This document shows, in pieces, positions 5,754 through 21,000 of a stretch of 64,000 nucleotides of DNA. This DNA is from Pleurotus djamor (lineage: Eukaryota > Basidiomycota > Agaricomycetes > Agaricales > Pleurotaceae), in assembly GCA_029747585.1 (NCBI GenBank), contig JAPEVF010000007.1, forward strand, positions 1 through 64,000. Direction: 5' to 3'. Below the pieces are notes generated by a model, which did no database searches, was not told the DNA's origin, and saw only the letters and a program-made list of their open reading frames with translations. Both the position numbers and the translations under genes were made by a program. Each line of letters opens with the position of its first letter. Position 1 is the first letter of the stretch.

Positions 5754-6913
5754 TAATTCCTACCCGCTGTCATACCCCAAAATTGAATCTTGGGATATGA
5801 ACATGAATCTGTGTAGTCAGCATCAGTCATCCGCGTGACAGAGACAAGGTTGTGAGGCGACGAGGGAGCATGCAGAGCATTCCTGAGAGTGATGGTGTAA
5901 GTACTTCCATCAGCAAGGGTAGACAGGAGTTTGACAGATCCTTTCCCAAGGCAGGGAATCTCTCCCATACCTCGGATAGTGTGTCCAGGAGTCTCAACAT
6001 AATCAGAGAAGAGAGATTTATCTCTGATAACATGTGAGGTACAACCAGAGTCAGCAAGCCAGGTAGTAGATGAAGCTGCAAGGCCTTCGTCGGCCATAAA
6101 GGCAAAGTCTTCAAGTCCCTGGTCAGAGACAGCTTCGTGTGCCTGATCCGATGGTTTCCCCCTCTGGAAACGCTTTCGGTCAGGACCCTGAGCCTTCGCA
6201 GGTAAACAGCATTCAGGACTCTTGTGTCCGCGCTTCCCACAGTTATAGCAAGTGACATTAGGATTATACTTAGGCTTCCTGTGGGCAGCAGAGAGGGCAG
6301 TATCAGCGCCAGGCTTAGACTGAAGTCGGTAGTCCTCTTCAAGGATGCGGGCAATGAGCGGAGCAGATTTTTCGAGAGTGCTAGAGTCGATAGCGGAGAT
6401 AAAGGAATTCCAAGATTCCGGAAGTGTCGTCAGCAGAGTGATTGAGAACTCAGGGTCTTCGATCTTCTGGCCAAGACCGTGCAGCTCCTCCTGGTAGGAC
6501 CTAAGCATACGAATATGTTCCTCGATGCTCATGCCTTCCACGCACTGAGCACGGAAGAACTTTCGATGAGCCAGGACAATACCTATGGGTCCTCGGGCTT
6601 CCAGCATGTCACGCATAGCATTCCATGCCTCAGCGGAGGTTTTTGCACCAGCGGCAAAAACAAGTAATTTATCAGCAATTCGCAACCGGATAGTGCATAG
6701 AGCTTGCTTATCCTTCTTCGACCAGGCAGTCTTGTCAAGGTCAGGAGCATCGTTATCAGGCTTTTTCTCTGAGCCGTCAACGTAACCGATTAAATCGAGG
6801 TCAGTCAGTATGTCCGTCATCTTGATCTTCCATACTGAGTAATTCTCGGCACCCTTGAGAGGGTCGATGCGGTAGATGCTGGTCGAAGACGAGGAGGTCG
6901 ATTGAGTCGACAT
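5753..6913 (-). pseudogene. Ty1/copia-type gag-protease fragment
   Basis: The 386-residue ORF starts at 6913. It has the gag_2-like helical domain (W..KM.DIL.DLDL.GYV, then LTTLPESWN), the zinc knuckle CYNCGKRGHKSPEC and the aspartic protease motif LADSGCTSHV. It reaches the start of the pre-integrase region (NLVSVTRMTDADY), then switches to unrelated sequence and stops. Integrase, reverse transcriptase and RNase H are missing, so this is a 5' piece of a copia-type element, broken near position 5800, where the KDZ relic begins shortly after. The ORF itself is undamaged, which suggests a fairly recent copy that was truncated by rearrangement. Confidence 0.88.
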
Positions 6914-7502: not shown

Positions 7503-10500
7503 TCAACCATCTGTATGAGACTATCCAGAAAAGTCACAGCAGGTACCCAATCTGTCAGCCCTGTAACCCTGTAAGCCTCTGGCAGCTCTGTAATGTTCTG
7601 TGCAGGACTGCAAAGCTTATCTGTTTTTCCTGATGCCGAGTACTGTACTTCCGTCTCGTTTCTCCATTCCACATCTTCTGGCTGCATATCGACATCCCAC
7701 CATACCTGCGTGACCCAGCCGTCGACTACTTCATGTTTCATTTGTAATTTGGCAATCTCTATCCTAAGCGAGCGAATGATCTGTTGAGCGTGGACTCTCA
7801 GAAAGAAAAAGACGACATAATCTACAATCCTTGACGTCTAGATCGGTCGACTACACCACACGTCCAATCAATTTGTGGAATTTTCTCAGCTTACCTAGCC
7901 TTGTCAAAACTTGATAGCGCTCGGTGGAACTTTGACACCACTTCATTGGCGTTTCATTTAAAATGTTCCTTGGTGAGCAGCGTCCTCCCGATGTCTCGAC
8001 GGTCAAAAGGAAGAGTGTCGTCTGCTCAAAGGATGGATGTTATGTTGATCGACCGAACGGAGTCAGGTTCACGGACGATTTTCATGACTCCTCATTTCTA
8101 TTTGGTGAATCAGATGGGAGACGATGTGAAAAGGAGAAGGACGGAGGAAGGAAGTGCGGGGGAAGTGGTGAAAAAGTTAAGTCTCGTGGAATGGTCACTT
8201 AATCATGTCCACACATACATTTCAGGTGCCCATCATACAGGTTTTGCGATTTGCCTGTTTGACCTGGGTGGTCTGTCTATCCCGAGGTCTTCGAAGTTGA
8301 AATCAAAATGCATTCTACTTCATGAACCCCTTGTGCGTTTTGAAGGTCCCTCTATCCAACTGCGCCGATTCTCATCCTGCCTCCCGAATCTAATGGCTTG
8401 CCGCTCAATGTGTCCGCGACGACCCACGAGCTTGCCTTCACTGCGAATGGTCCCCGTGCGACCTCAGTATGTAGAGGTAGAAGGACGGGAACGGTGGGTG
8501 GAAGAAGGTGTCTAGATGCCACAGTGAAAAAAGACCTGGATTTTGACATCGAACACGGGACTATGGTTCAGGGGAGGTCTGATTGTGTTGTGTGTTTTTT
8601 TCGTGTGACCTGGTGGACGTGTCTGGTATTGAGTCAACGTGACGCCACCTCTGCTCTCACACTGCAGTCATTCCTCGTTGGTAGTGGATGTCGCGCTGTC
8701 AGAAGATCGCGGTTCATATCACCCGGTTTATCGCGCTTGTATGCTCCTCTTGTTCGGAGGGATGCATTTGTTTGGATTGTTCTTGGTAGCTCCGTGTCGA
8801 GCCGTATTCTTTTTAATCCGACCCCTACCACAATAGAGTATGTCAGCTCCAACCTCGCCGATGACGCGGACGGCTCATCCAAGGTGGCCACACCATTGCA
8901 AAACGATCTCTCCCACCTCTACGAGCTCCAATCCTTCTCTATGCGTGACCCGACCTTGTCTCTATCCATACGATACCACCAGCCACTCACCTTTGTGTCC
9001 GGTGAGAATGCTGAAACCCTGCCGACGACGATGGAGTACAAACGGCGGATAAAAGCTCTTGACTCTGCTAGTCGGTCCATCCACTAGGGTGAAGCCTGAG
9101 ACAATCCCTAATCGACGGTTGGCGACAAAATTACCTGGTTTCTTACTCATGCTGGTTGAACGACTCACCCCCAGTTCCGCGTTGCTAAAACCTTGGAGTA
9201 GCCTCAACGTGTGTGCGTGTGTTACAAGGAAGGTAGGACACCTGCGAGCATGACCTCAAATGAGGATAGTAATATACTACATCAGTCAAGAAAAAATTCG
9301 ACTCCTCGTAGCAAGCATATTACGCCGGTGGTTTCTCAGGTGGATGAGCGGCGGGCCTGTGGCTCCTGCGATTTTCTCACGTCACCTGTCACTTATACAG
9401 ATACTCCACCCCTTATGTTGTTCGCTCAGATTGTCCTCCCTTTATTTCAAGCTCCGGAGCACGAGGGCTGCAAGACGAAGAAACGGAGACAAATACACTG
9501 TGGACATTGGCTCCTCCATGTCCCCCAGGAATAAAAGAAGGTGAGAGATCCCTTATACAGCAGCTACCGACAAGCATCTGGGTTATCCCCGCAAGCTTTG
9601 CAATTCTCCCAATCGACCTGTCGCCCCCATCCGCCCCCTCATGATTTACGTCCCCTCATCACCATGGTTCCGCCGTCGATGCCCTCTTATCCAGCTGAGA
9701 CTGATTACAGTATATCTCCTCCGCCACCGTGTCCTCTGTGCTCAGGTCCCAGTCGTAGCCCGTTCGTTACACCTGTTCGTCACTCGAATCGTCTACCTTT
9801 TAGTGGTGCTGTATAAGTCAATGACTGGGATCAAAAACTCTGGGTATCAGGCGGTTACGCATTTCCAATGACGATCAAAGCTAGAAAGCCTGACGTATCC
9901 AGACGTGACTCGCGAACGATGAGGGATCATGGGATAGATCGGACACGAAACGGCGACAAATTGATGTATCAGAGTGGATCTTCTCAGTAGTAGTGTTTGC
10001 CTTGTACTTCAGCTGGGATGCGAGGATCAGAAAACCATATTGAAAGTTGATGAAAGACCAAAGGGAAATCCGAAAGACAAGGAAGGGAAAGCGGAGTTCA
10101 TAAATCAGCGCTCGACTAGCGCTCGCCTCGAATACGACCTCTTCATGATGATTCCAGCTTCAACGCTTTCCATCGTTCAAATGTCCAATACCCGGACCAA
10201 TGAGATTCTCCAACTCCCCTTTATATTCCATTTCAACACCGTGCTCCCTGAGGGTCGTTTTGACCTTGTAACGGAGCCTTGAACTCAAAGTCCACGTACA
10301 GCGCAATGCTTATAGGTCTCAGAGGGTACGTACACACTTGATTTAGACATTTCTCGTCCCCTCAACTTGTCTGCTGTAGATTCACAGAATTACAATGCTT
10401 GTAACGCACTCCAAAAGCCTTTCTCAGTCCTGAGCGCACTTACCCATACAAACGACAGTCTGCCCGTTGAACGTTGATAACCCGATCCATACCCGGCCGA

Positions 10501-12173
10501 TGGTATTCGTATACTGTTCACGTGCACGAACTCAAGGACCAATGTGACTCTCGAATGTACGTCTTCACGCACCGATGATGCTGGAGATGAGACCCAGGGA
10601 ATAGCCACAGTTCTCTTGCATTCGCTTTTATTGGCTATAAAGGTGCGCATATTGGCCATCTCGACACCTTCATCGCCTCAGTCTGTTTCGCAGGGCCATG
10701 GGCAGGAAATCGTTCTTCGAATCTTTCCGTGCTGTTCTGCTCTACACGTCGACACGGGTTTCCTTAGCTCCGAACCAATTCGCCGACCGGTACCTACACC
10801 GTACCGGGTCCATAGTGTCTGCTCCCGCGACTCACAGTCACAACCACAGCTCCCGCCCATGAGTATGCTCTCATCTCCATCTCCCATCCTCTCCCCCTTC
10901 ATACCTTGTACCACTCCCTCTTCTGTACTTACGCATTATGAATGTTATACTTTCTCTCTCTGCTACCTGTCCAGTTTTCTCTTATTGATCCACGAATACA
11001 CGGCGCTCAACTCCTGCGAACTGTGTTCCCATTCACTGCCAGTTCGTCGTTTACCAGCCACGGCCCATGGGTATGAAGGGAATAACAGTGTCGACTCCAC
11101 AGCTCTGAGTCCGTAAGTATAACATTATTGAGCTTGAAACCACGAATCCTACGTCGGCGAATAGATGTAAAGTAGCATTCCAGAAAACTAGAATCGTCAC
11201 ATGCGACTCGTTCCCTTTCTCCCGTTTCTGTGTCCAATGACTTGAGATCAAAGACAACCGTGCTCGACTTGTGTCTCCTCCTCCTAGCCTGTCCGAAGAG
11301 GTGTGGATCCTTTCAAGACACTATATGCCTTGTATCACGCGGGGGTTTGAAATTGTCGGACACTGGGTGATAGAAGGACATTGGTGTGTGGAAAGTGTTA
11401 TCCTCCCAGCCCATCATCTGGACACTCAGTGTGTTTAGCTTTTTTTNCTTAGTCCACCTACTTGCACTAGAGTATACAGAGTGTGAACAAGTCTTTGCGT
11501 CTAACCAGTCACTCTTTGTACTCAATCAAACCGAAATCGTAGAGCCAAGCATAAAAACACAAGGGTAATAGAATGTACAAAAAAGGAGTGGTCGAAATGT
11601 CTGACCTCGGAGACCCGTGTTTCATCAGGTCGATGTTACGTTGGTTTTGCAATTTTCTCAGTTGACCTGGTTTGTGTCCTTTGGGAAGTCGTGTTCGCGT
11701 TTCGTGAATTGTCAAGGTGTCTGTTTCCTTCGAGATAAGTGATTCATCCTTTGCGGGCATACTTAATGTGGGCGGACTTGAGTGTGACTACGGGTGCCTC
11801 ACAAATCCGAGTGCAGGGAGTATGGCAGGCTTGAGGAAGTAAGCATGAGACAAGGCCTGTGCGGGGACGCACGGAGTTTGAAGGTGAGCGCTCGATTAGC
11901 GCTGGATGACGCGGCGTTCGTTTGTCCTCAACATTCAGGCTCTTTCAATCTCTATCTTTCTACAGACTCGGGGTATGGGTTGCAAATGGGTTGGGTGTGC
12001 TCATGGCCACGCTTATATTGCAGAGGTGCGTATACATCCGCTCTGACCCCTTTTCTTCACTTCAATCTGTCCTTCACAGCCCCAGATTCAGCGACTACCT
12101 GCCACGATGCTCTGATACAGGCCATTCTCATCTCTAAACCCACAATACGCGCCCCAGCCCAATATCTCTTGTC
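7503..12173. repeat. Non-coding block with diverged copies of a dispersed repeat
   Basis: I see no convincing gene here. Several phrases recur with variation in this block and in 18,033-21,170. 'AATTTTC(C)TCAGnnnACCTG' occurs near 7881, 9374 (diverged), 11652, 18577 and 20472. 'GTTTGACCTGGG' occurs near 8254 and 19105. 'AGGTGCGcAT' occurs in variants near 8225, 10641, 12014 and 20155. The longer stretch 7650-7990 aligns by eye with 18,440-18,730 ('CCACCATACCTGCG..ACnCAGCCGTCG', then 'CGTCCTCCCG..TCGACGGTCAAAnGGAA'). This is an old, non-coding interspersed family or the remains of a non-autonomous element. Long ORFs in this block lack family features and are probably chance. Confidence 0.5.
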
Positions 12174-12182
12174 CCCACCGAC
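12174..12182 (+). repeat. Target-site duplication, left copy (CCCACCGAC)
   Basis: The 9-mer CCCACCGAC directly precedes the left terminal inverted repeat and is repeated exactly after the right one at 18,024-18,032. Confidence 0.85.
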
Positions 12183-12330
12183 TAGGCTTGTGACCATCCT
12201 GTCTATGATATTGTCGATAGACAGGCTGGTCGATCTGAGTTTAAACCTGGCGTACAAGCTGAACTGTCAAAATATGTCAGAAATATGTCAGAAAAGCGAC
12301 AGGTCCTCGCGTGGACGAGTCACATGACCA
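12183..12330 (+). repeat. Left terminal inverted repeat with iterons
   Basis: About 150 bp matching, inverted, the block at 17,861-18,023, with the best conserved core at 12205-12280. It holds three spaced TGTCA words (..TGTCAAAATATGTCAGAAAT..) and ends near GTGGACGAGTCACATGACCA. Similarity fades inward; the outer end is sharp at the target duplication. Confidence 0.8.
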
Positions 12331-12434
12331 TGGACGCGTGGCAGTCACGGTCACACGATCGAACGGAGCAACGGAAGGAAACGACCGGTTTTTTTTTNCT
12401 AAGTTCAAACTTGTGTTCGCGCTCGACTGGACAA

Positions 12435-14498
12435 ATGCCTGATCTTCTATCTCCCGAGATAAAATCTGCCCTTGCCGCCATCCGAACGCTGGCCCCCAAC
12501 GAGATCGCTGCTGCGTATGAACACATTCCGGAGAACCTGAGGCCTTCAGCGGACTTTTTGGCTACCCTCAAACTGGACGAACTTGTTATGGCACAGCGGC
12601 TATGCCTTCTCCTTATGGCCACAACTCAGGGTACCCGTTGCCCCCGCGATTTCCAGCTTCGGAGTGCTATTGCGGCTTTGACACAACACGACTGCCTTGT
12701 CGACGCCGGGACTGGCTCCGGGAAGACCCTGTGTATGATACTTCCCTTGCTGATGGATCCATCGGGAATTACCATCATGGTAACACCTTTGAAACGCCTA
12801 CAGGCAGCTCAGGTATGTTCTTTGTGACTTCAAATTTATCATCTGTACACATTAATGTGCTTTGAGGTCGCTGAATTCGCATGTTACGGTATTGAAACCA
12901 TTCCAATCAACGAAGATACACCAAAACATGACAAGGACCTCTGGGAGGTAAGTTAGAATTGGAATACTGTGCCGGTTGTTCCCACTGACATGTAGCCAGC
13001 GCATCAGCGATGGTAGCATACTGCACCTACTTGTTCAGCCTGAACAACTTACCAAAGTTCACAACCACCTTCCGAAGCTCGCACAGATCATACGGGATAA
13101 CCGAAAGTTTGTCAAACAGATTAAACGGTTCAATATTGACGAAGCACACTTTATCGTCACCGCGGGGATGGATCAGCATGGTGTTCAGGGCTGTCAAAAA
13201 GCATGGGGTTGCTTAGGCGAAGTACGTGTATGCCTTTTCAAGGATGTCCCATGCCTTGCAATGTCTGGAACGTTTCCACCATACATCAAGGCCCATGTTA
13301 TTGCGAGTCTGGCCTTTGGCTCCACATATGTTTCGATAAAACTCTCGAGCAACCGCCCAAATACAATCTATGCGACTTATCCAATTGCCGAGTCTCTAGT
13401 CAAATATTGGAACCTCGACTTCTTAATTCCCTACTCCTACGATCCTACCGCTCGCCCTCGACGAAAAATCCTTGTATTTGTGGACAACAGAAATGAGAGT
13501 GCAAAAGTACGGGACTACCTTGATGGGTTGCTACCACCAGAGCAGCGCAATATGGGGTTTATCAAACACTACCACAGTGGAATGTCCAAGGAATATCTAC
13601 TACATACATATGACAACTTTGCAAATCCCGATGGAAGGTGTAATTGGCTGATTGCCACGGAGGGCGCTTCAACGGTCACTTTTTTTTTATTTCCACCTAC
13701 TCAAGTTTGACTCAAAGTATCATTTCTAGGGTCTTAACATTCATGATCTCTACGCTGTTGTTCAGTATGGGATTTGCCGTGATATGGCTGGAATGCTTCA
13801 ACGAGGTGGCCGCTGTGGACGAGTCCCCTCTAGCAAAGCTGTCTTTCTTGTACTTTATGAGCCCTGGGTTCTGAAAGCTGATCTCACCAAGTTCGCCTCA
13901 TCTCCACCACCTGATCCGGACCATCCAGTCATCAAACTCACACAGACGGCAACTAAGGAAGAACGTACTGGTATCGCTACAATCTCGTATTGTCAACGCT
14001 TATCCTGTCTTCGTACAAGCATCGCCAGTTATAATGATGACAGATCCTCTCGAGGTGTGTACTTTCTGTTCAACATCAATATCAATCAGATATTTACTCT
14101 TATTTACCAAGCAATCTTACACGATTTTGAATGTTGTGTTCACTGTGATGATATTGACCTGGCAAATTTATTTTTTNGGTAGACCACTTGCGAAATCAAA
14201 GCCATATCAATTTGTTCTATAGACACCAATGGAGGCGCAAAGTTTACCATGTCTATCTGACGCCAAGCAGAAGATCTTGATAAACAAGCTCAAAACATGG
14301 CGGACTCAGATGTGGAAGGAGTCACCATTACAAGCGATACGACCCCCAACCTACATCATTTCCGATACGGATATCAAGACTTTGGTATCTACTCCTCTGG
14401 CTCATCTTCAAAGCCCTGATATGATCACCACTCGAATTGAGGAGACGGAGGAATGGGGAGAAATGTGGGCCCAAAAGATTTTTCAAATCCTTAGATGA
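12435..14498 (+). CDS. RecQ-like DEAH helicase of the TIR element
   Basis: Exons 12435..12812, 12867..12950, 13000..13674, 13730..14054, 14112..about 14178 and 14223..14498; about 600 residues. All superfamily 2 motifs are present: Walker A AGTGSGKT at residues 91-98, VTPLKRLQ (Ia), DEAH at about 201-204, AMSGTFPP (III), KILVFVDNR (IV), IATEGAST|GLNI (V, split by an intron) and QRGGRCGR (VI). After them, CLRTSIASYND..ECCVHCD looks like the RecQ zinc-binding segment. No premature stop is seen. An N at 14177, after six T, sits at the fifth exon border and leaves the phase there unclear. RecQ enzymes unwind DNA 3' to 5'; a role in mobilisation of the element or in repair of its ends is inference. 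The donor at 13675 (gtcact) is weak. Confidence 0.85.
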
Positions 14499-14510
14499 AA
14501 GTGGTGCAAT

Positions 14511-14545
14511 GGAGTAGAATTACAATAGTAGAATTACAATAGAGT
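14511..14545 (+). repeat. Short tandem duplication in the 3' intergenic gap
   Basis: GTAGAATTACAATA is duplicated between the convergent helicase and DUF6589 stop codons. It is a small replication-slip-type feature. Confidence 0.6.
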
Positions 14546-14554
14546 ATCAACATG

Positions 14555-17500
14555 TTATAGCTCATCCTCAGTATCAAATGTAAATGCTACTGGGGGTAGT
14601 TCATTACTTGCATCCTCTTCTTGCTCCTCATCCCCTACTTGACACTGTACCATTGCCATGATCTTTCTGTTGAATGTCGCAAGTTTTGATGATCGGAGCT
14701 TCTCTTCCCCAGCAGCGAGGATGTCTGTTACACACTTTGCAGCATTCCCCCTTGAGCGTGACAACAGCGATTTCTGCAAATTTAGCTCTCGGGCCTTATT
14801 AGCAATCTTCCATACCAGCTGTGAAGTATCTGGAGTTGAGTGGCTTGAACCATGGTACGCCACCGACAGCGCCAAATTCACTTCTTTCTTGAGGTGCTGT
14901 AAAACTGAAATTCCAGCGGATATGTCCCCAAGCCGGTCCCAGGTTGAGTAGACACCCTTGGCCACAAATAGTGACTAGCTCTATTAGATAAACACTCAAA
15001 TCAAATGAATATAGTGGACGTACCTTGAGATACCCAATCAGATGCTCAATATTCAAGTCAACAGGCATGGCATGCCCTGGCAGCCCCGAGATGTTCACAA
15101 GCATGTTATCACGCATGATGTTTCTAGTATCAAAGTCAGTGGTATTAGGGAAAGGAGAGAATAGAATCATATGCAAACTCCGGAGTCCAGACCTTCTTTA
15201 GATTAAATAGAAAGTGGAGAATCTCTGAGCAATAGTTGTTTGAGCCAGCACCTCGGAACATCATTGCCAACTGTGGTAGAAAGTCTTCTATCGCCCCAAA
15301 GTCTCCAGTGCTAATGGCGCGAATAAGCTCCAGAACATATAGTAGATCTCTTGTGAGTAGCCGAATATTATGGTTAACTTTGTCCGTTGAGGGTGAATCT
15401 GTCGGTGAAGCATAACAGAGAATAATATCCGCAGCCTTGGAAAGTATCTCCTGACCAGTGGGGTGTGAGCGAGCATACGATGATAGGCTGGAATGTCCAC
15501 AAGAGTCACGCCAGGCATTGAGGAGAAGCCCATGAACAACCTGTTCTAGACTAGCAAGGAGTGTGTAGTAGTCTGGATGTTCACCATTGAGTCGCTTCTT
15601 ATCCAGTAGGGCAAAAAAGTACGTCAGGCTTCCAGGCTGAGACAGAGAGCCACGATGAACGTTTAAAAGGCACCAGACAAGGTTGAGGCATAGATGGAAG
15701 AGGCCGAACCCAAGTTGAAAAATATCCCGCCGAGACCATTCATTTTCATCATGAGCGCGCAGGATCTTAGCTCCTTGAATCCGAGCGTTGGTAGATTGAT
15801 CATTGATACAGGGTATCGCGAAAAGACAGAGCTCTTCTTCGCTTCGCTTCAGTTGGTTAATGTAAATGTCTTCATGGACGGCCAGATTCCCCTCAACCGA
15901 AGCCTCTTCAATCGTCGATGTGCGAAGTGGATATTGCTTAGTCTTGTGACCCGCCGGCATGGCTTGACGTTGGGTATGTTGCAGCTCAGGTAGCGTCTTG
16001 TAGGTCTCGAAGCCTGGAGCGTACGTAAATAGCACCTGGGCAACGATAACAGTAAGTTAATGATGGAACGCCGTAGATTGATCGAGGGTGGGCCGAAGAT
16101 CAGCAAAGCGGAGGGGGGTAGCGTTTCGAAAGCGCCGCAGAATCGGGGCAAGTAGCATGTCCTCACGTCGTGCATTCCGAAGCTCGTAGATGACAGCAAA
16201 TGTGCCAGACTGAACCTTTGAAGGGGTAGCGGCACCTCGCTGCTCGGTATGGATGGAGGTACTGATATTGACATTGTCATACGCACATAGATGGGGTCCA
16301 CGGCTGACCCTTGCGGCCCTTTCGAGGCATTGCATACCGAGGCTAGCGATGGAGTTGAGGACTGTATCGTAGGAGACGGTGAGACCGCATCGAAAGAGGG
16401 CGTCAATCGTTTGTCGTTGACACCCCGTACTCCAGAGGAAAAGCCCAAGAACGCTATGAAATTTTGAGCTCCGGTTGGACCGTTGATACGCCAATTGCGT
16501 GACAAGGACTTTGCAAGTCTACAAGGAAAAGAGTTGGTCAGGTTTTATGGAGAAACTTATAAAGGATCACGCACAAGATCTGGATTTTTCAAGATATTTT
16601 TCTCTTCGGCTTCATGTGTCTGAGCGGCAGTGTGTAGGATCGACGACAGTGTTGGCGAAGCTATTGAATCAAGGATGTTCGCGTGCGACCAACCCTTGAG
16701 ATACTCAACGGTCAAGTCCGAGACACCTCTTGGAAGAGATAGATGCTTCTTGACAATATCCATCTCCTTGTAAACCTCGGCTGTTACAGTTTCAAGCGCA
16801 TGGGGTCGCATGAAGTCCTTCAGTGTCGCGGCGCCTTTCGGACTCTCCAAGACCAAGTCAAGGAGTTCAACCAGCTTTTCGGGGGCTTTCGCAAAAAGAC
16901 CGCTGCGGTACTGGTCATTGGACCACTTCCGAGGGTTAAGAACTTCAAGTAGAAGATCAATTGGAGCAAGCCTCCCTTGTCGAAGAATTTTGAGAGCCAT
17001 CTCGAGGCGTTGGGTCCGTGACATACGTGTGGACGAGGAGGTGTCAAGAGGGGAGACCGGTTCGTCATCTGGTGGTGATTCTGGAGGGTAATAATGATAG
17101 AACGACGTGTCGTTCGTTGGTTGGGATGGGAAGTAATGGTAGTCGTAGCATGGCGATTGAAAGAACGGGGACGGGGGCGGCTCGGAGATCATGCCTGCTG
17201 GGTGGAAATCAATTAGGTTCGCTGGCGATGATGTGTAAAAAAAACCACGTACCATCATAAAGTGATCCTGATACTCCAATACTCCCGAACTGTGTCAACT
17301 GGGGGAAGTCCTCGGTTGGGAGCTGATCAATAACATATGCGTCCAGAGTCGATGATTCGGTGCTGAAGAGCAAGGAAGAAGACAAGGAAGAGTCGGAAAT
17401 AGAGGAATTATAGCCAGGCCACCAAAATTCCGCGCTCGAGGCCATCGGTTGAGGAAAGTCACTGGTCATGTATGATTGAGGAGCTGGGGGGGGCCCCGGA

Positions 17501-17712
17501 CTGCGAAGAGAGCTCGGATTTGAGCCATGTAGACTGCGAGACTGTCGCCGCAGCCCGGGGCTTGCGTACGGCGAACAACGCGGCTGTTCAGTTCGGTGGG
17601 ACAAACTAGAGCGTCGTCGTGGGAGGCTTGGATTGTTGGCATATTGGTTGGAGGTGTAAAGGTTCTGCGCTGTAAAGAGCGGAGGACCGAGCTCAGGGCT
17701 TGCGTAGCTCAT
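14555..17712 (-). pseudogene. DUF6589-domain protein of the TIR element, one nonsense codon
   Basis: Exons on the minus strand: 17253..17712, 16575..17197, then 16518 down to about 15180, a short exon around 15,010-15,130, and a last exon to 14555; about 980 residues. The first 200 residues are Ser/Pro-rich and disordered. DUF6589 follows: KVLVTQLAYQRS, LFLWSTGCQRQTID, YDNVNIS, TKQYPLRTSTIEEASVEGNL, CINDQSTNARIQGAK, FQLGFGLFHLC, SLTYFFALLDKKRLNGEHPDY, LLTRDLLYVLELI, MMFRGAGSNNYCSEIL, NMLVNISGLPGHAMPVDLNIEHL. One in-frame TAA (16059..16057) interrupts ..TAFHH, where the next codons continue LTVIVAQVLFTYAPGFE in frame with no usable donor before it; CAA to TAA fits. Apart from that stop the gene is whole, so the copy may be young. 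The function of DUF6589 is not known to me; a nuclease/transposase role is proposed in the findings. Confidence 0.82.
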
Positions 17713-17860
17713 GGGTGTGAGACCGATAGAGCTACGAAACAGTCGACGCGTTGATGAAGGCGATTGCTGAGGGTATGCGGCGACGGAACGGAATCAACGG
17801 ACACGAAACGCGTTGATCGTTGATCGGTCACACTGTCCACATGTTTTGCTTACATCATAC

Positions 17861-18023
17861 GCACGTGACTCGTCCACGTGAGCATATGTCATTTTCTTGA
17901 CATTTCTTGACATTTCTTTGACATTTCAGCTTGTCTACTCGGTTTAAACTCAGATCCACCAGGCCGTCTATCGACGGTCTCCTTTTCAAGCGACGACCTC
18001 ATAGCGGTCTGGTCACGAGGCTA
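17861..18023 (-). repeat. Right terminal inverted repeat with iterons
   Basis: Inverted match of 12183-12330. On the minus strand it runs TAGCCTCGTGACCA.. GTCGATAGACGG.. GATCTGAGTTTAAACC.. ACAAGCTGAAATGTCAAAGAA, with the word TGTCAAGAA repeated in tandem, and CACGTGGACGAGTCACGTG. It is slightly longer than the left copy because of small insertions near the outer end. Confidence 0.8.
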
Positions 18024-18032
18024 CCCACCGAC
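18024..18032 (+). repeat. Target-site duplication, right copy (CCCACCGAC)
   Basis: Exact copy of 12174-12182, directly abutting the right TIR end (..GAGGCTA). Confidence 0.85.
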
Positions 18033-21000
18033 GTCTACACATACGATCTCCCTCTATGGGATATGATATATGAAGGAGGAGACTCCCCGAGCCCGGGTTC
18101 ATGGCAACCCCATCGCGTACATCCTTCCTCCTGTCGAGCTCTCCCCTTCTACGTCGTAATACCCCATCGTAGCTGGACGGTTCGCAGCTCTGTACGGGAA
18201 CAAATTCGATCTTTGCTTTACCAGACTACATCCGAAACTTTCTCTCCATCATCCAATTGCAACATCACGTTTGCTCTCATACGATCTAGGTGTTTGTGTC
18301 CGTTCCTATTGTTCTCACAACTTGCTATTCCACCTGCGCACCGACTCCTTGGTCTTTCCCTCTCCAACGCCATGGCCACATGTGTCTTCCTCGCGTGTTT
18401 CTGCTCAACGCTCCCATTTTGTGTCTAGTCCAAGTTCTCCATTGTCCAACTGCGTATACTCTACGTACACCCACCATACCTGCGATACTCAGCCGTCGCC
18501 TGAGGCGCGTTTCATTCTTTATTTGAGAAGCCCCATCGACAGCGTTCTAGTAGACCGCAATCTAGTTGTGAATTTTCCTCAGCAGACCTGTCCGTCTCCC
18601 GATTCGTCAATCCTAAACGGCGCTAGGTAAAACTTCAAGCTCTCTTCATTGCATGTTCATTTTTCCACGGTGAGGCACCGTCCTCCCGTTTTCTGGACGG
18701 TCAAATGGAAATGTCTGATCTGGTAAAAAATGAGACTGCCAATCGCTCAGATTCATTGAGCGCTGGAGGATTGTCACGACCCCCAAGTCAGTTTGGTGAT
18801 TTGTCCATTCCACCTATTATTCAATCCCGGTTCTGGCTTATAAGTTATCGCTGCGGCCGAAGGCCCTTTTCGTTTCGTGGGACATCACTCCTAGGTTCCC
18901 TCGTCAACATCGACTGACGATGCTCGTTGGAATACTGGAAGTAGGACTCGGATGCCGTAGTCACATAGGACACAGAGCGGAGACTGGGGGAGAAAACAAT
19001 CGCGGGGAAGTGTACTGGGTGCAAAAGATGATTGGCGCGGTGGCCTATTCACTTAGGCTGTTCCATACAGGTATACATCCGTGCGTGTTTTGTAATATTT
19101 CCGTTTGACCTGGGTGATGTGTCCATCAAGCACCACACTAAGCTAATGTCGGGTTCGCTTTTGAGTTGAGCTAGCCATCATCAATCCGCCGCCGTCGCTT
19201 TTTTCCCTCAAATCCGTTTCGTTCAGAGACCACTAGGAGCAGGTCTTCGAGACGATGTCTCCCCATGCACTACCTTCGGTTCATTTTCCTCGGTCATTGT
19301 AACGGCTACGATCTACCGAACATGACGACTCGAAATACATTCTTTCGCTAAAACCACGAACTCCGTCCTCCATCTTTCGGCGGCGACTCTTTAAACGCAT
19401 GTGCATTCACCTCCCCTTCTTCTTGATATACTTCCAAGGCCCATGTTGTTAAAATAATCAAAAAGGATACACCTAGTTGTTGAGATTCATCGCATTCCGT
19501 GGTAGTCCCAAGGAGAGATGGCTGAGGGTTTGGAAATTTCTAGCGTAACCTGTTTATCGGCCAAAGGCGCGTTTCCAGTCGTCGTTTGGATTTTGCATAC
19601 AAGTCTGCTTGATGGAGAAGGACCCAACCCCGCGCTGAGGTAGAAGTACAATGGAGGGAGCAACCAGCAAGAAGGCGCAATGGTCCATGTACAAATGCAT
19701 AGTCAAAAAGGAGAAGGTTGTGGTACACCAAGAGGGATCGCGGATCCTAGGTGTGGTATCGCTAGGTTTCGTGATTCGTTCATTCCACCTGTTTGAGCCG
19801 TTCCTCAAGGGTGTGAGTCCCTGAGGAATCGTGCATCTGTTCGCCATATTCAGATGCTGGAACGAGAAGTTGGATCGCCCAAGCAAAGAGTGGAGTTCGA
19901 ACTGAGTGATCGCGAGACCAAGGGTGATCTGGTAAAACAAACAGACGCGTCTGCAGGCCTCATCACCACCGGTGATGACGCTGCGCGCTGGGAGATCATT
20001 GTACGACTTTTCAAATTTCTTCGCTTCGCCTGTTTGAACCTGGTTCATCTAGATATTTCGCGTCCAGATTCTTGGCCAATGTCGGGAGTGAATGGACAAA
20101 GCATCTAACCTACCTTCAACCTTGGGCTACGATAACTCGGTTCTGACAGTACAGGTGCGCATTGTCAGGCTGTCGCACGTCACCATTTGGCGGGTTAAGG
20201 TCGAATCATCTTTGGCGGTGTCTAAAGGCCTCCAACATGCTTAATTCCAGAGTACATTCTGCTCGTCACCTTTTCCGACGACATTCGCCAACGCTGCCTT
20301 GTCACCTTTATTACGCTAGGAAACGTGCAGCAACCCGTCTACTAACCCTTGATAATCACCTCCCCCCGCCGTGTTGTTCCCAGAATACTAGTCTCGAAAA
20401 ATTAAAGGCCGACTAAATGGAGCCACCGACTCACGTCCTTTTGACCTTCTGAAGTCGAAGACGCCTAGTTTTCAATTTTCCTCAGTTCACCTGTATCAAG
20501 ACTTGCGATCTCGGCAAGGAGAGTTTCAGGTATTGATTCAGACACCTTTCATCACTGACTCATTGACTACCTTGAAGAAGTGTTGTAAGTCACTTTGACG
20601 CAAGATGGTGAGAATGGAAATTGAAACGGCGAGAGAACTGCGTGTTCACCACATGCGCGAGTGAGTCTCCTCCTTCGGTCCAAAAATCTGGGATCACTCA
20701 AACATCAGGGGTTCTACTCTGCGTGCGGCTTTTTTCAGCTTGCTCAAGCTTGCTTGGGCTCAAGCAAGTGCGAAAAGCGCGAAAAGGTCGAGAAAATGCC
20801 AAATGTCGACAAGCGGCGTAGGATAGCCCAAAAAAACTGGCGAAAATAGGTTCGGTGAGGCCTTTTGCCCTTTTTTCCTCTACCGAGGTTCTCAATTTTC
20901 CGTCCAACGAAAGGCGGATTCGAGGTCTTGGTATGAATTTGATATTCCCTCCGAGTCGCCTTCTCAATATCCTTCTCAGTCTTGCTGTGGATATGTCTCC

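Follow-up and report, generated by a model that had tools for sequence, protein, structure and literature searches.

Gene content and borders of the element

The 64,000-nucleotide window analyzed here (Pleurotus djamor, contig JAPEVF010000007.1, positions 1 to 64,000 of the forward strand) contains a genuine DNA transposon with sharp borders. The complete element is 5,841 bp long (12183–18023) and carries two convergent genes, a RecQ-like helicase gene on the plus strand and a gene of the DUF6589 family on the minus strand. It ends in imperfect terminal inverted repeats (TIRs; left, 12183–12326, plus strand; right, 17862–18023, minus strand), and a 9-bp target-site duplication, CCCACCGAC, abuts the left tip at 12174–12182 and the right tip at 18024–18032. 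Read directly from the sequence, the left tip is TAGGCTTGTGACCA (12183–12196) and the right tip, as its reverse complement, is TAGCCTCGTGACCA (18010–18023); they are inverted copies following the pattern TAG(G/C)CT(T/C)GTGACCA. An inverted-repeat search identified outer arms of 59 nt (12213–12271 and 17917–17975, 85% complementary) and inner arms of 42 nt (12285–12326 and 17862–17903, 79% complementary), and the block GATCTGAGTTTAAACC at 12232–12247 is mirrored without a mismatch at 17941–17956. Together with the two genes, the tips, the arms, and CCCACCGAC on both sides bear out the original prediction, in which a RecQ-like helicase gene and a DUF6589 gene are carried by a TIR transposon flanked by a perfect 9-bp duplication, as well as its statements on the convergent gene pair and the mismatch-free inner block.

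Positions 10001–20000 were scanned for exact direct repeats of 8–11 bp combined with inverted 12-nt tips (at most two mismatches) around the gene pair, and the sole pair returned was CCCACCGAC with the tips at 12183 and 18023. The ends represent more than a chance match, because short elements elsewhere in the genome bear the same ends. The 1-kb flanks on both sides were single-copy in the genome except for one 43-bp patch, in a copy search that passes over very common words; thus, the repeats stop at the target duplications, and a larger repeat extending past them, which had been named as a ground for refutation, was not seen. A search of the same genome with both flanks revealed no empty site or allele, and no RNA families were matched in positions 11000–19000. 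Single N bases stand beside T runs at 12399 (upstream of the helicase start) and 14178 (in a predicted intron), and these probably reflect assembly uncertainty.

The helicase gene (12435–14498, plus strand) was modeled without stops in five exons (12435–12812, 12867–12947, 13000–13674 or 13665, 13730–14056, and 14223–14498). Eight splice variants of 569–578 aa are compatible with this model, and the 575-aa variant was used for the analysis. The protein matched PF00270 (1.2e-8) and, weakly, PF00271 (0.0011, under the cut-off of that profile). It also matched the recQ_fam model TIGR00614, which we take to be the same model as CDD:129701, with 4.1e-26 and 91.8 bits, not reaching the curated cut-off of 219.8, and the Bloom helicase (BLM) among PDB sequences (4.8e-15). 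Judged by these matches, it is a RecQ-like helicase of superfamily 2 (SF2) that falls outside the strict RecQ models.

The DUF6589 gene (14555–17294, minus strand, approximate borders) was recognized from matches to PF20231 and contains several introns; its N-terminal start is unsettled, with an upstream open reading frame (ORF) extending to 17793. PF20231 matched with 1.4e-70 across the ORF at 15145–16056, and additional pieces matched with 3.5e-10 and 5.9e-5. Two aspartates and one glutamate are retained across the family. In the window copy, the putative catalytic residues are an aspartate in a YDN motif (16276–16278), an aspartate aligned to a GD motif (15799–15801), and a glutamate in a D...EH motif (15045–15047), all on the minus strand. 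In three related elements described below (C489, C1051, and C698), the two aspartates were located by profile alignment after a first motif regex had missed them. The DUF6589 profile gave no matches among PDB sequences at E ≤ 1, and Foldseek with the model of a DUF6589 homologue gave no match in the PDB and viral libraries at E ≤ 0.001. The best alignments of this good AlphaFold model were with the structures of the P-element, Hermes, Transib, and RAG1 proteins. The conserved D/D/E residues and the homologue model suggest that DUF6589 probably acts as the DDE transposase; its core is predicted to be RNase H-like, with an insertion made up entirely of helices separating the second aspartate from the glutamate. 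For DUF6589, one search returned 395 relatives (120 listed; 7,996 candidates scored). With a diverged DUF6589 (locus C548) as the query, 34 proteins were obtained, all of them PF20231 and, where organisms were named, from mushroom-forming fungi; no animal relative was found among the 7,996 candidates scored.

An in-frame TAA interrupts the DUF6589 coding region at 16057–16059 (minus strand), which is either a disabling mutation or part of an unrecognized short intron, and the segments on both of its sides align to the family. Owing to this stop, the window copy may make no full-length transposase. We give about even chances to the possibility that the window element is a passenger with a dead transposase copy, mobile only in trans through, for example, an element of the C231 type described below. 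Such a state would be compatible with the classification proposed here, and it finds further support in the short relatives, which necessarily moved in trans; however, a 9-bp duplication without mismatch points to an element that inserted fairly recently, and the TAA could sit in an unrecognized intron.

Related loci, short relatives, and foldback ends in the same genome

DUF6589 matches were found at least 27 times in the genome, on 13 contigs, and the comparison covered the window and, for the other 12 contigs, stretches no longer than 9.9 kb around the matches. The recurrence of the gene pair was confirmed: 12 of the 13 DUF6589 loci also have a RecQ-like helicase nearby, the exception being C194, whose contig ends 930 bp past the DUF6589 match. 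Among the 12 paired loci, 11 show the convergent arrangement and only C974 has the two genes divergent, and the paired helicases have diverged to about 25% identity. Helicases at C544, C548, C63, and C1153 were missed by the first tblastn search and found with other queries. Matches to the window helicase itself were located on 13 contigs, of which nine are DUF6589 contigs and four (C986, C521, C736, and C1085) are not.

The original prediction had leaned toward Mutator. Long TIRs and a 9-bp duplication are consistent with Mutator-like elements (MULEs), and both would fit a MULE with a captured helicase gene. No MULE domain was detected at E ≤ 1 in nine ORFs of the element or in 37 homologues, the genome not having been searched for a MULE gene between the same TIRs. 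The helicase stands beside DUF6589 in nearly all loci despite the divergence of its copies, and this recurrent pairing argues against a one-off capture; we regard a MULE origin as extremely improbable.

TIRs had also been expected at other DUF6589 loci, and this expectation was borne out in part. The C489 element (5,861 bp) has a perfect 167-bp TIR and a perfect 9-bp duplication (AACTCAGAC), and the C1051 element (7,207 bp) has a perfect 160-bp TIR and a perfect 9-bp duplication (CATGGAGGA). TIRs without target duplications were present at C698 and C231. At the right end of C231 (around 6433–6462), where no target duplication is present, the 15-bp end is doubled in tandem, perhaps left behind when an insertion aborted or occurred tip to tip. 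C548 showed merely a 71-bp inverted repeat (79%) and no duplication. At seven of the 13 loci (C974, C993, C1216, C544, C63, C1153, and C194), no convincing TIRs were found in the stretches fetched, which counts against the expectation; decay and ends beyond the fetched stretch are indistinguishable for these loci. A 12–16-nt inverted match around five loci (E of 0.1–0.9) was regarded as noise. The C698 and C1051 elements are about 85% identical, and that of C1051 carries about 885 bp missing from C698. The tips of C489 and C1051 are longer by two bases than the tip of the window family, and tips across the family read YAGSCT....

Using the ends of the window element as queries, 24 contigs were matched besides C1084 and C231. 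Eleven of them carry inverted tip pairs of the window family, spanning 87–727 bp, and eight of these pairs are flanked by perfect 9-bp duplications (C1288, C1371, C741, C845, C199, C1044, C800, and C471). For the others, the duplication has one mismatch in nine (C618), matches at eight of nine bases with a displacement of 4 nt (C578), or is absent (C530). Four contigs (C289, C533, C901, and C567) show a single recognizable tip only, a loose pair at C478 (226 bp, no duplication) was excluded from the 11 as chance-like, and eight contigs matched without a locus (C588, C718, C1215, C772, C840, C1229, C729, and C376) stand outside the tip-pair count. Similarity to the full element is confined to the ends in the copies of 527–727 bp, and four elements of 87–90 bp consist of little beyond foldback ends. 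C530 (837–1588) and C1044 (1–751) hold copies of 710–711 bp that are 99.5% identical, including a common 41-bp left flank. The C1044 contig starts at this common flank, the right flanks differ, and the 9-bp duplication is present in the C1044 copy only; the two may be one insertion, and could result from the assembly having split one locus or from an allele that was rearranged. Short elements of the C1051 type have perfect 9-bp duplications in two of three cases (C515 and C610, not C206), a count that leaves out C123 and C1136, which were likewise matched. The ends of C489 were not found elsewhere in the genome. Short, ends-only copies with target duplications resemble derivatives mobilized in trans, and the transposase of their own family would be the mobilizing enzyme.

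Every TIR tested folds back on itself, with an arm beginning 9–19 nt from the tip and its complement 10–92 nt further inward. In the window element, the arms lie at 12192–12206 and 12217–12231 in the left end (hairpin 12192–12231, plus strand) and at 18005–18013 and 17958–17966 in the right end (hairpin 17958–18013, minus strand). Significance was assessed with 300 dinucleotide shuffles. The foldback was strong for the window left end (score reached by no shuffle), C231 (one shuffle), C1051 (two), and C698 (two), the latter two not being independent because of their 85% identity, and it was weaker for C489 (17 shuffles) and the window right end (32 shuffles).

Classification against known transposons

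PMC10045372 ties AcademH elements to a helicase and to duplications of 9 or 10 bp, whereas AcademX elements, of the same superfamily by name, are tied to a nuclease and to duplications of 3 or 4 bp. According to a passage of PMC6416283, most fungal Academ copies have recognizable domains such as PF00270 and recQ_fam (CDD:129701), and annotations often list these copies as host genes; PF00270 and recQ_fam are shared with the window element, and the passage contains no TIRs, duplication length, or DUF6589. AcademH is described as low-copy in Basidiomycota in PMC10799480.

The window element encodes an SF2 helicase of this DEAD/DEAH, recQ_fam type (PF00270, 1.2e-8; recQ_fam, 4.1e-26, below the curated cut-off). 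Duplications of the AcademH length were found at the window, C489, C1051, eight of the 11 short tip pairs, and two of the three short C1051-type elements, and none was found at C698 and C231. The DDE/D transposase of AcademH has a counterpart by prediction, through the conserved D/D/E residues and the homologue model. A nuclease domain, the mark of AcademX, was not detected at E ≤ 1 in the nine ORFs of the element. As helicase type and duplication length, both testable marks in print, fit, the element was filed as AcademH. Judging by the published descriptions, we are confident that it is an AcademH-type DNA transposon.

The likeness to Academ is one of description, and no text linking DUF6589 to Academ was found in the literature searched. 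Both points would suit a separate superfamily, distinct from Academ, in which DUF6589, as an unrelated DDE transposase, came to be paired with a RecQ-like helicase independently and likewise generates duplications of 9 bp. We consider such an origin improbable, as helicase type and duplication length both agree with the AcademH and fungal Academ marks in the printed passages.

The transposon type had been proposed as undescribed, a claim not supported in view of the fungal Academ copies with PF00270 and recQ_fam (PMC6416283) and the 9 or 10 bp duplications of AcademH (PMC10045372). Like the window element, AcademH as described in PMC10045372 and PMC10799480 is a DNA transposon with a helicase and a 9-bp duplication, in Basidiomycota. 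DUF6589 was unmentioned in the 5.39 million papers searched (Repbase and subscription journals lying outside the search), and the DUF6589–AcademH link therefore appears unwritten there. The layout itself belongs to an already named group, and what is new is the DUF6589 assignment, the foldback ends, and the derivatives of approximately 88 bp.

Other transposon groups were also compared. The predicted fold of the DUF6589 homologue resembles the P element, hAT (Hermes), Transib, and RAG1 in its RNase H-like core and helical insertion, with no sequence similarity detected; to our knowledge, none of these elements carries a RecQ-like helicase. Plavaka/KDZ was rejected, as no such Pfam match was obtained at E ≤ 1 in the 37 homologues, and Helitron was rejected, as TIRs and a 9-bp duplication are present and no Helitron domain was found in the nine ORFs.

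Proposed mechanism and implications

In the mechanism we propose, the DUF6589 transposase would bind and pair both ends through the YAGSCT... tips and would cut or nick at the ends, exposing 3' ends. These would be joined to the target strands with a 9-bp stagger, and gap repair would yield the duplication. The helicase would work with the transposase, unwinding either the ends or the target junctions with their gaps. Its task may be to open hairpin-prone ends, to clear the gapped junctions so that they can be repaired, or to power a copying mode, and none of these options is favored. Short, ends-only derivatives would be mobilized in trans. In a more speculative version, which we think rather unlikely, the RecQ-like helicase and the TIR hairpins would form one unit, the helicase extruding or unwinding the ends as a requirement for DUF6589 action, and an end pair of approximately 40–50 bp, as in the 87–90-bp derivatives, would suffice in cis. 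If true, this coupling would make a dedicated helicase an obligatory part of a DDE transposition system. Judging by the 87–90-bp derivatives, the natural substrate may be very small, and the role of the RecQ-like helicase of the element in DDE transposition is therefore directly testable.

DUF6589 is an unexplained family of mushroom-forming fungi. If it is an AcademH-type transposase, such genes could be removed from host gene counts, and the same would apply to genes annotated as 'II DNA helicase' that are related to the paired helicase.
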